From positions 1 through 64,000 of the forward strand of contig JAFGBK010000052.1 of assembly GCA_016933175.1 (NCBI GenBank): DNA of 64,000 nucleotides. Reading direction: 5' to 3'. The notes beneath the pieces are model-generated. The model worked only from the letters and a program-made list of their open reading frames with translations, made no database searches and was not told the origin of the DNA. The translations under genes were made by a program, and so were the position numbers. The DNA is from Candidatus Krumholzibacteriota bacterium. Lineage in GTDB: Bacteria; Krumholzibacteriota; Krumholzibacteriia; JACNKJ01. Below, piece by piece: positions 42,993 to 48,710 of the stretch; within the stretch, counting starts at the first letter, position 1, and every line of letters begins with the position of its first letter.

Positions 42993-44918
42993 TTAGTGCT
43001 TGCGGGACACTTCGTCAAGGGCCCGGGCGATGAAATCCTCCAGGCCGACTGCCCCCTCGTCGCCCTGTTTCTTGCTCCGCAGCGAAACGGTGCCCTGCTC
43101 CATCTCCCGGGAGCCGACGATGAGCATGTAGGGCACCTTCTGGAGCTCGGCCTGCCGGATCTTGTAGCCCACCTTCTCGTCGCGGGTGTCCAGTTCCGCC
43201 CGCAGGCCGGCGCTCCGGAGGCGCTCGGTCACCTGCCCGCCGTAGTCCCGGAAGGGGGCGCTGACGGGCAACACGGCCACCTGGACGGGGGCCAGCCAGA
43301 GGGGGAACTCCCCCGCGAAGTGCTCCGTGAGGATGCCCACGAAGCGCTCCAGGGACCCCAGCAGGGCGCGGTGGATGATGTAGGGGTGCCGGTGCTGGCC
43401 GTCCTCGTCCACGTACTGGACGTTGAAGCGCCGCCCGAGGTTGAAGTCGAACTGGATGGTGGTCGTCTGCCAGAGGCGGCCGATGGCGTCGCGCAGCTTG
43501 AGGTCGATCTTGGGGCCGTAGAAGACGGCCTCCCCCTCCATGCGCTTGACGGCCAGGCCCACCTCGTCGGCGGCCGATTTCAAGGCCGCCTCCGCCTCCT
43601 CCCACTCCCCGTCGCTGCCGATGTACTTGTCCCCGTTGGCGGGGTCCCGGACGCTGAGCTCGGCCTGGAATTCGTTGAACCCCAGATCGCGCTGCAGCTC
43701 CTGGGAGAAGTCGATGAGCTTGGTGACCTCGCCTGCGAGCTGGGCCGGCGTGCAGAAGATGTGGGCGTCGTCCTGGGTGAAGCCGCGCACGCGCAGCAGG
43801 CCGTGCAGCGTACCGCTGCGCTCGTAGCGGTAGACGGTGCCCAGCTCGGCCAGGCGCAGGGGCAGGTCGCGGTAGCTGTGCAGCTCGTTCTGGAAGACGA
43901 GGATGTGCCCCGGGCAGTTCATGGGCTTGACCACGTAGGTCTGCCCGTCCTGGTCGAAGGTGTACATGTTGTCGGCGTAGAAGTCGAAGTGTCCGCTGGT
44001 CCGCCACAGCTCGCCGCGAAAGATGTGCGGCGTCACGATGAGCTGGTAGTCCCGGCGGCGGTGCTCGGCCTTCCAGTGGTTCTCGATCTGCTCGCGCAGG
44101 ACGGTGCCCTTGGGATACCAGAAGACCAGCCCCGCGCCGGCGTCTTCCTTGATGCCGAAGAGCCCGAGTTGCTGGCCCAGGCGGCGGTGGTCGCGCTTCT
44201 CGGCCTCGGCCAGCATGGTCAGGTGGGCCTCGAGGTCCTTGGCCTTGAACCAGCTGGTGCCGTAGATGCGCTGCAGCTGCTCGCGCTTCTCGTCGCCCTT
44301 CCAGTAGGCGCCGGCGACGCTCATCAGCTTGAAGGCCTTGAGCAGGCCCGTGTCGGGCACGTGCGGCCCCTCGCACAGGTCGACGAAGTCACCCAGCTCG
44401 TAGATGGAGATCTCCGCGGCATCCGGCAGGTCGTCGATGTGCTCGACCTTGAAGCCCTGGCCCCGCTCGGCGAAGAAGCGCTTGGCCTCCTCGCGGCTCA
44501 TGATGGTCTTGACGAAGGGCAGCTTCGCCCTGGCCAGCTCCTTCATCCGCGCCTCGATGCGCGCCAGGTCATCGGGCGTGAAGGGTCGGCCGACGAGGAT
44601 GTCGTAGTAGAAGCCATTCTCGACGTCGGGTCCGAACGCGAAGCGGGCCTCCGGGAAGAGCTCCTGGACCGCGTAGGCCATGAGATGGGCCGTGCTGTGG
44701 CGTAGCACCTGCAGGCTGTCCTCGTCGTTGTCGGTGAGGACCTCGAAGCGGCCGCCCGCGCGCAGCTCGGAGTGGAGATCTATGACACGGCCGTCGAGCC
44801 GGACGGCGACGGCGCGGCGCGCGAGGCCCTCGCTGACGGCGCGCGCGGCGGCGGCCGCGGGCAGCGGTCCGTCCAGCTCGAGGACCTCGTCATCGGGAAG
44901 CGTGAGGGCGATCTTCAT
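42993..44918 (-). CDS. thrS: Threonyl-tRNA synthetase
   Basis: 641 residues with the full bacterial architecture: TGS domain (1-60), editing domain (HSTAHLMAYAVQELFPEARFAFGPDVENGFYYD, with the His-x3-His), class II core and C-terminal anticodon domain. The zinc Cys is in VKPMNCPGHILVF; motif 2 is LRLAELGTVYRYERSGTLHGLLRVRGFTQDDAHIF. ATG 44918. Upstream is an intrinsic terminator after tRNA-Val, so thrS may depend on read-through. infC follows 154 bases downstream. Confidence 0.96.
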   Translation of the reverse strand: MKIALTLPDDEVLELDGPLPAAAAARAVSEGLARRAVAVRLDGRVIDLHSELRAGGRFEVLTDNDEDSLQVLRHSTAHLMAYAVQELFPEARFAFGPDVENGFYYDILVGRPFTPDDLARIEARMKELARAKLPFVKTIMSREEAKRFFAERGQGFKVEHIDDLPDAAEISIYELGDFVDLCEGPHVPDTGLLKAFKLMSVAGAYWKGDEKREQLQRIYGTSWFKAKDLEAHLTMLAEAEKRDHRRLGQQLGLFGIKEDAGAGLVFWYPKGTVLREQIENHWKAEHRRRDYQLIVTPHIFRGELWRTSGHFDFYADNMYTFDQDGQTYVVKPMNCPGHILVFQNELHSYRDLPLRLAELGTVYRYERSGTLHGLLRVRGFTQDDAHIFCTPAQLAGEVTKLIDFSQELQRDLGFNEFQAELSVRDPANGDKYIGSDGEWEEAEAALKSAADEVGLAVKRMEGEAVFYGPKIDLKLRDAIGRLWQTTTIQFDFNLGRRFNVQYVDEDGQHRHPYIIHRALLGSLERFVGILTEHFAGEFPLWLAPVQVAVLPVSAPFRDYGGQVTERLRSAGLRAELDTRDEKVGYKIRQAELQKVPYMLIVGSREMEQGTVSLRSKKQGDEGAVGLEDFIARALDEVSRKH

Positions 44919-44957
44919 GATGGGCCACCCGTCCGTGCGTGATGCTGAACCATAGCG

Positions 44958-44983
44958 AAAAGGCCAGACTCAAGCGCCTGGCC
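44958..44983 (-). terminator. Intrinsic terminator between tRNA-Val and thrS
   Basis: Minus-strand GGCCAG, loop, CTGGCC, TTTT. It lies 12 bases after the tRNA and 40 before the thrS start. It is either a tRNA terminator or an attenuator for thrS, since no good promoter was found between the two. Confidence 0.75.
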
Positions 44984-44994
44984 TCAGCGTCGGG

Positions 44995-45068
44995 TGGGCG
45001 ATACTAGACTCGAACTAGTGACCTCTTGCGTGTCGAGCAAGCGCTCTAACCAACTGAGCTAATCGCCC
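44995..45068 (-). tRNA. tRNA-Val (GAC)
   Basis: Acceptor GGGCGAT / ATCGCCC with discriminator A. The anticodon arm CTTGC-TCGACAC-GCAAG gives GAC (reads GTC). T arm GTTCGAGTC. The 3' end continues ACCC, so CCA is not encoded. Confidence 0.95.
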
Positions 45069-45095
45069 ACGGGCCTATTGCCATAGCATGCGGGG

Positions 45096-45124
45096 ATTTA
45101 AGCGCCTGATTCCGGCTTTGTCAA
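45096..45124 (-). promoter_or_regulatory. Sigma-70 promoter for tRNA-Val
   Basis: Perfect TTGACA, 17-base spacer, TTAAAT on the minus strand, about 20 bases before the tRNA start point. It lies just after the upstream ATPase stop codon. Confidence 0.8.
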
Positions 45125-45139
45125 GACCGCCCCGCGGAG

Positions 45140-46216
45140 CTAGGCCATGGGCACGGCCTCCCCCACGACCTTCAGCCGCGGGCTGGCCTTCTGGAACTCC
45201 AGGGCGCCGTTGCGCTTTCTGAAGTCAACCTGGATGTGGTCGCCGTAGCGGACCTGACCCGTGGAGATGAGGTTGGACAGGGGGTAGACCAGATAGCGCT
45301 CGATGGCCCGCTTGATGTGGCGGGCGCCGTACTTGCGGTCCACGCCCTCGGCGAGGAGGAAATCCTTGGCCCGCTGGCTCAGCTCGAATGAGAACTTGGT
45401 GTCGCCCGCCGACTGCATGATCCGGCGCTGGAGGTTGCCCAGCTCGATGTCGAGGATCTGCCGGATGTGGTCGTCGGTCAGGTTACGGAAGACCACCACC
45501 GAGTCGATGCGGTTCATGAACTCGGGTGAGAACTTGCGGCGGGCCGCTTCGAGAACGGTGCTGTAGATCTGCTTGTCCATCTTGGGATCGTGGACCCGGG
45601 CGCCGACATCCGTGAAGCCGATGCCGCCCTCGAGCAACCGCTCGATGCGCTCGGCCCCGATGTTGCCCGTCATGAAGATGATGGTCCGGGTCATGTCGAC
45701 TTCGGAGTTGTCGCCGAGAGTCAGCCGCCCCTTGTCGAGAATCCCCAGGAGAAGGCTCCACAGCGTGTCGCTGGCCTTTTCGATCTCATCGAAGAGGATG
45801 AGGGTGAAGTCCAGCTCCGGCGTGCGGTAGCGCTCGAGGTTCGCCTGCGAGAAGTAGGGTGTCGTTTCGCGGTGGCCCAGGTAGCCCGGCGGCGATCCGA
45901 TGAGGCGGCTGATCTCGTGGCTGTGCGCGTACTCGGCGCAGTCCACCTTGAGCACGGCGTTGAGTGTCCCGAAGAGGATCTCCGACGAGGCCTCGATGAT
46001 GCGCGTCTTCCCGCTGCCCGTCGGTCCGAGGAACAAGTAGTTACCGATGGGGCGCTGCGGCGGATAGAGCCCCGCCAGGTAGATCTGGTAGAGGCGGGCG
46101 ATGCGCTCCACGGCGCGTTCCTGTCCGACGATGCGCTCGCGGAGCTGCTCCTCGAAGTGCTCGGCTGCCATCGACTTCTTCTGCGGATCCAGGGTGCTCT
46201 TGGTGGCAGTACTCAC
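45140..46216 (-). CDS. Stand-alone ClpA/ClpB D2-type AAA+ ATPase
   Basis: A 358-residue protein with one AAA+ module of the Clp/Hsp100 second-domain type and no N-domain or first ATPase domain. Walker A GPTGSGKT (64-71), Walker B LILFDEIEKA (Asp143-Glu144), sensor 1 TGN (183-185), arginine finger in FSPEFMNRID (Arg236) and the small C-domain (KYGARHIKRAIERYLVYPLSNLI). Between sensor 1 and the finger is GGIGF (IGF 199-201), the position of the ClpP-docking loop in ClpA/ClpX. No ClpX zinc finger. clpP is not in the window. GTG start with AGGAGGG upstream. Function unknown. Confidence 0.85.
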   Translation of the reverse strand: MSTATKSTLDPQKKSMAAEHFEEQLRERIVGQERAVERIARLYQIYLAGLYPPQRPIGNYLFLGPTGSGKTRIIEASSEILFGTLNAVLKVDCAEYAHSHEISRLIGSPPGYLGHRETTPYFSQANLERYRTPELDFTLILFDEIEKASDTLWSLLLGILDKGRLTLGDNSEVDMTRTIIFMTGNIGAERIERLLEGGIGFTDVGARVHDPKMDKQIYSTVLEAARRKFSPEFMNRIDSVVVFRNLTDDHIRQILDIELGNLQRRIMQSAGDTKFSFELSQRAKDFLLAEGVDRKYGARHIKRAIERYLVYPLSNLISTGQVRYGDHIQVDFRKRNGALEFQKASPRLKVVGEAVPMA

Positions 46217-46733
46217 GACGCGTCCCTCCTGATGCAGAGCTGGTGCTTCGTCCGCGGCCCGTACAGCAAGGAGTCTGCCAAGGCGCCCTTTTGCCGGGAG
46301 GCACCGGCTACCGGCGGCGAGCCGCCAGGCCGGCGTCCTATCCTCTTTGGAGCGTGTGTTTTTCCGGCCTGACGCCGCCGCCGGCTCGCAAGTGACCGGG
46401 CGGCACCTTGTTCCCGGCGCTGGGATGGACCGGAACCGCCGCCGGTGGCGGGAGGCGCCACTGCAACGCGGCGCCGCAAATTCGAGACGGGACGCGCGTC
46501 ATCACGACCGCCGCCGGCGACTTCGCCAGATGTGATATTGCATGGCGATCGTTCGCATATTACGAGAAGATAATGATCGGCCCGCGAACGGATGGCGCCG
46601 CAAGAGAGCCGCGCTGCCCTCGCCGTGGCGCGTCATTACGCATCGTCTGCTGTCGGACCAGATTCGGCTGCAGCATCATTCAACATGTAGCATCCCATAT
46701 GATCGTCGGTATCCGATATCCACCACATAATAC
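46217..46733. other. Intergenic region between the AAA+ ATPase and dnaK
   Basis: About 515 bases with no coding frame that has both a ribosome binding site and plausible composition. The left half is GC-rich like the genome; the right half near 46540-46730 is AT-richer with runs such as CATATTACGAGAAGATAATGATC. No RNA gene recognised. It must hold the promoter of the AAA+ gene, but no confident element was found. Confidence 0.6.
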
Positions 46734-46760
46734 AAAAGGCGCCGGGCAATACCCGGCGCC
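46734..46760 (-). terminator. Intrinsic terminator of dnaK
   Basis: Minus-strand GGCGCCGGG, five-base loop, CCCGGCGCC, TTTT. Thirty bases after the dnaK stop. Confidence 0.9.
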
Positions 46761-46790
46761 TCGGTCAACGATGGGGAACGACGACGGCGT

Positions 46791-48710
<1,920 letters not shown>

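Follow-up and report, generated by a model that had tools for sequence, protein, structure and literature searches.

To our knowledge, the known ATPase partners of ClpP either have two rings (ClpA, ClpC and ClpE) or are ClpX. The tripeptide [IGF/L] tells the ClpA subfamily, which partners ClpP, from ClpB (PMC9495089), and an LGF loop has served for predicting ClpP partners (PMC10149685). Clp proteins are also found in phages. Jumbo phages encode ClpA and ClpX, also ClpS and ClpP, and for the phage ClpA and ClpX proteins the authors proposed roles as translocase or in virion assembly (PMC7824862). The ClpA of a moraphage is another phage-borne Clp ATPase (PMC12619734). A precedent for phage interference with Clp is the adaptor-like protein Gp53 of SPO1, which acts on ClpCP (PMC6873191).

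Here we describe a Clp ATPase encoded in a stretch of 64,000 nucleotides (the window) from a Candidatus Krumholzibacteriota bacterium. We favour, with some confidence, the reading that the protein is a single-ring unfoldase of the D2 type which docks on the ClpP of its host and belongs to a family carried mainly by phages, from which it was probably derived. Among open-access papers we found no description of this stand-alone family.

The window protein and its IGF loop

The gene (clp) lies on the reverse strand, as do all features of the window described below, at positions 45140 to 46216 and codes for 358 amino acids. Its GTG start is supported by the N-terminus MSTA(T/I)KSTLDP, which is conserved in two relatives (G001 and G003). 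An earlier note on this DNA had described a stand-alone D2-type protein with one AAA+ module, and this was borne out. Pfam finds AAA_2 (residues 55-239) and ClpB_D2-small (246-330) besides a weak match to AAA_5. Neither zf-C4_ClpX nor Clp_N turned up in the Pfam scan, nor did a further AAA module; D1, M-domain and N-domain are absent from the 358 residues, and the zinc domain of ClpX is missing, as the note had said.

The motifs of the module are intact. Walker A reads GPTGSGKT (residues 64-71; 46004-46027) and Walker B LILFDE (residues 139-144 with D143-E144; 45785-45802). Alignments place pore loop 1, GYLG, at residues 111-114 (45875-45886), and it is followed by a family-specific stretch, HRETxPxxxQxxL... 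(residues 115-137; 45806-45874). The sensor-1 residue Asn185 (45662-45664) and the arginine finger Arg236 in FMNRID (45509-45511) are invariant, and the sensor-2 residue Arg299 in GAR (45320-45322) is nearly so. The full set of Walker motifs, sensor and arginine finger claimed earlier is present, and in an alignment over 35 homologues most of these motifs are invariant. Judged from its sequence the protein has the anatomy of a complete AAA+ motor including the pore-loop tyrosine. The gene is under purifying selection (dN 0.138 and dS 0.66 against G003). An AlphaFold2 model has a pLDDT of 91.6 and a pTM of 0.87, and the nearest solved structures in a structure search are ClpC in ClpC-ClpP assemblies and NBD2 of ClpB.

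The tripeptide IGF at residues 199-201 (45614-45622, reverse complement ATC GGC TTC) was read directly in the window open reading frame, where the earlier note had placed it, between sensor 1 and the arginine finger. In the alignment this ClpP-docking-like loop falls in the column in which ClpC, ClpA and ClpX have [LMIVF]GF or IGL; the ClpC proteins of the same phylum carry M/L/F/V-G-F at the docking position. In the three ClpB proteins which we read (E. coli, Nostoc and the window's own genome) the loop is missing at this column, which agrees with the note's remark on disaggregases. IGF is kept in four of four genomes of the window's own family (group A, see below), each time as GGIGF, and in 36 of 36 copies read of a second bacterial family (group B). 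A loss in close relatives, which the note had named as a point against its docking idea, was not seen.

We then consider a non-redundant set of 66 family members, that is, three of group A, nine of group B and 54 viral proteins. G200 is kept in 64 of the 66 and F201 in 60. The column entropies are 0.23 bits for G200 and 0.57 bits for F201, whereas most flanking columns are at about 3 bits. The xGF motif is conserved amid a scrambled surrounding loop over a range of about 35-82% identity, and conservation of IGF is far beyond chance. In the model the mean pLDDT of the loop is 77 for residues 191-200 and 68 for residues 201-210, among the lowest values of the AAA core. A conserved GF within a variable loop is consistent with a contact motif exposed on a free loop. 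It could be argued that IGF arose by chance or has a structural purpose alone, without a docking role, since GF could be kept for packing inside the module. We regard this as improbable, as the loop is one of the least confidently modelled parts of the core, its flanking columns are near-random and the ClpB proteins read manage without it.

Bacterial copies and the dnaK locus

Each of the four genomes in the window's taxonomic family (f1) carries the gene; these copies make up group A, and the relatives are 78-81% identical to the window protein. A scan of 84,980 genomes for close relatives gave one locus, apparently from the same genome as G002. Group B is a second family of stand-alone D2 Clp proteins of about 410 amino acids with 36% identity to the window protein (for example L060:7471-8718, L071-L100 and others). 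Half of the 80 genomes of the phylum (40) encode it, and it is nearly universal in the families f4 and f5. Its C-terminus carries a conserved acidic extension (DLGVKDDGGEKK...). Two group B copies, L099 (in G050) and G040:C47, stand in unusually long frames of 880-1050 codons, either a fusion or a mere lack of stops. The plasmid matches which we opened were ordinary two-module Clp proteins.

The upstream neighbour of clp is dnaK (46791-48710), and directly downstream lies tRNA-Val(gac) (44992-45069). The order dnaK, clp, tRNA-Val(gac), thrS, infC is found in the window, G001 and G003; in G002 we see clp, tRNA-Val and thrS, with clp split over two contigs. Twelve relatives from the families f3, f6 and f7 have dnaK and then tRNA-Val and thrS within 50-354 bp, without clp. 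Only f1 has the gene at this position. Thus dnaK at this place predates clp, and the clp-less relatives fit an arrival of the group A gene at this locus within f1. The earlier note had taken the position next to dnaK as a hint. This hint did not hold up; because the block exists without clp in relatives, the proximity is no evidence for a partnership with DnaK.

Upstream of clp, dnaK is followed by a hairpin which resembles an intrinsic terminator and has a stem of 12 pairs (46736-46762; one found, 0.5 expected by chance). Together with the twelve clp-less relatives of the same order it weakens the case for a functional operon with dnaK. Read directly in the gap between clp and the tRNA is a promoter-like TTGACA-17-TTAAAT (45096-45124), ahead of tRNA-Val. 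We also considered whether the gene had recently integrated at tRNA-Val and left att repeats, but no matching direct repeats flank clp and the gene is 5′ of the tRNA. Apart from clp, the order dnaK-tRNA-Val(gac)-thrS-infC (42993-48710 in the window) is common to f1, f3, f6 and f7, and in most genomes of the class which we read tRNA-Val(gac) precedes thrS.

There is no clpP adjacent to clp in the 64,000-nucleotide window. The genome has clpP adjoining clpX elsewhere, as well as homologues of clpC (cut at a contig end) and clpB. With these genes at hand a partnership of the window protein with ClpP seems likely.

Viral relatives and the origin of the gene

The earlier note missed that the closest family is viral. 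Outside the window's own family the closest relatives come from viral contigs of IMG/VR and are likewise stand-alone Clp ATPases, with 45-60% identity; one scan of that collection brought up such proteins with identities as high as 57%. A 29-base degenerate pattern for PPGY(I/L/M)GHxET was run over IMG/VR and gave 94 stretches. All 79 new loci encode relatives, every one of them stand-alone, and all scans combined gave 77 distinct stand-alone proteins. The signature of the family is GHxxET; the window protein reads PPGYLGHRET after pore loop 1, in agreement with PPGYxGHxxET, and shares with the family the single D2 module and the length, which is mostly below 450 amino acids. Short flanks of 38 of the 77 viral loci contain at least one strict phage-type gene. 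The neighbours code for SbcC/gp46-like (gp46/47-like) nuclease, UvsX, RNA ligase, UvsW-type helicase, terminase, portal and late sigma factor. In the collections searched the stand-alone family is phage-dominated. Among the top isolate-phage matches listed, a stand-alone member with GHxxET was not recognised.

In the viral loci clpP was not found as a recurrent neighbour of clp. A ClpP-family gene is present on three of 33 viral contigs, which are fragments, and in none of them beside clp. Since the other 30 show no ClpP gene, a docking motif of the viral proteins would act on the ClpP of the host. The one strong ClpP homologue (E 9e-77) is at 428603-429142 of G102, the 463-kb IMG/VR contig holding L318, about 300 kb from the stand-alone Clp. 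Weaker ClpP-family matches are found at G098:89729-90121 and G081:856-1329, about 7 kb and about 17 kb from the Clp gene; these are possibly head-maturation proteases. The missing adjacency to clpP counts against the docking reading, as do a few viral members with a lost or changed loop. Two of the latter, L325 and L271, are candidates for natural ClpP-independent forms.

It is conceivable that the proteins are remodellers or assembly chaperones whose ring unfolds or threads proteins with no need of ClpP, and that the GF loop meets another partner, for example a virion-assembly protein. In principle such a partner could account for the conservation of GF. Near relatives of the window protein lie in head-tail and tail modules: L339 adjoins head closure Hc1, Neck1, tail terminator and tape measure, and L190 has a head-closure Hc3 match nearby. 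A gene for a GroES-like co-chaperonin is near clp in six viral loci, ClpP is lacking on most viral contigs, and the roles suggested for ClpA and ClpX of jumbo phages point the same way (PMC7824862). However, the tripeptide has the pattern and the position of a ClpP-docking loop, which the ClpB proteins read do not have, and the bacterial copy is retained where no phage is assembled. We therefore think this unlikely, though it deserves to be kept in mind. As to the six loci with the GroES-like gene (L191, L203, L268, L291, L332 and L337), several also encode a conserved protein of about 250 amino acids near the stand-alone Clp.

Phylogeny was among the checks proposed in the earlier note, and it placed the protein outside ClpX. 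The split of ClpX from all D2-type rows has support of 100/100, and a ClpX with domain loss was not seen. In a tree rooted on ClpX, group A and group B come together in a single clade distinct from the D2 modules of ClpA, ClpB and ClpC (96/87), and this clade persists at 100/99 when the columns of the insert and the loop are removed. The profile scores agree: the best NCBIfam models match the D2 halves of ClpB and ClpA far below the cut-offs (ClpB, the best among the named models, 254.6 bits against 1232.1), and the ClpX model reaches 36.5 bits against 359. A truncated ClpX or ClpC is ruled out by domain content and trees. An ordinary ClpX or ClpC stripped of its extra domains, with ClpP as partner and no special origin, would explain the fold and the docking loop, which are as in the D2 of ClpC. 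This we consider very improbable indeed, as the genome also encodes separate homologues of ClpX and ClpC, the trees exclude a placement inside ClpX or the D2 of the phylum's ClpC, and the insert is common to the family, whose numerous viral members are built in the same way.

When viral rows were added all stand-alone proteins formed a single clade, with support of 99 in one tree and 100/100 in a reduced tree from which the insert and loop columns had been removed. In both of these trees the window group falls among the viral proteins, in the reduced tree with support of 96/91 and 97/92. In the reduced tree group B lies outside the clade of viral proteins plus group A. AU tests do not reject a grouping of all viral rows with group A outside (p = 0.155), and one clade of bacterial A and B is only marginally disfavoured (p = 0.065, not rejected). 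Because these alternatives are left by the tests, the direction from phage to bacterium is likely but not proven. The stand-alone Clp may instead have arisen in bacteria, where A and B are chromosomal in the phylum, and have been captured by phages at least once. The position of group B and both AU tests speak for such an origin, which we nevertheless hold to be the less likely course by some distance: the trees put group A among the viral proteins, the viral diversity is far above the bacterial diversity seen, and the clp-less relatives fit an arrival of the gene within f1. We suggest that the window lineage probably acquired clp from a phage and has retained it at its place after dnaK and ahead of tRNA-Val.

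Proposed mechanism and comparison with known Clp systems

We suggest that the window protein could act as follows. The single D2-type AAA+ module would assemble into a hexamer. The GYLG loop, powered by ATP hydrolysis, would thread substrates through the central pore. Flexible IGF loops would dock on the bacterium's own ClpP and feed it chosen proteins, and the unfoldase would work beside the resident ClpX and ClpC. In phages, the same loop could allow the use of the host ClpP. A wider proposal, that a large phage family of single-ring Clp caps uses IGF to plug into host ClpP and to choose the substrates and that at least one bacterial lineage domesticated one as a permanent extra ClpP partner, we put forward only tentatively, as its chances seem slightly less than even.

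If true, a ClpP partner with one ring and only the D2 module would be a minimal Clp cap and would reveal which tasks can be done without D1 and the N-domain. Phages that use such an unfoldase, if they do, would have a direct route to redirect host proteolysis, beyond adaptor-like proteins such as SPO1 Gp53 and beyond phage ClpS and ClpP. Phages may thus steer host protein degradation with such machines, and the window lineage seems to have retained one. The short signature and the conservation of the loop render the docking idea testable.

Among phage proteins the best PHROG match is the ClpA-like phrog_4871. Both are Clp ATPases in phage-borne families; however, the phrog_4871 profile spans two modules over 764 positions, and the match to the window protein is confined to its second half. 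Similar in length and fold is the single-domain phage protein A0A6J5MAM5 of BFVD (356 amino acids, TM 0.75), though with only 27% identity and annotated merely as 'AAA domain containing protein'. ClpB shares the NBD2 structure, but it has a long M-domain and D1 and no IGF loop, whereas the window protein is a single module with the loop. ClpX also has one AAA+ ring and an IGF docking loop, but differs in its zinc domain and is related only distantly. Similar, too, is the D2 of ClpC and ClpA (class I Hsp100, ClpA subfamily), with 35-41% identity to ClpC. Like the window protein it combines AAA_2 and ClpB_D2-small with a GYxG pore loop, an NRID finger, GAR at sensor 2 and an xGF or IGL loop; the window IGF agrees with the [L/I/M]G[F/L] which ClpA and ClpC have between sensor 1 and the arginine finger. 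ClpA and ClpC, however, have two AAA+ modules with an N-domain, whereas the window protein is without N-domain, D1 ring and M-domain, carries the extra stretch after pore loop 1 and belongs to a separate clade.
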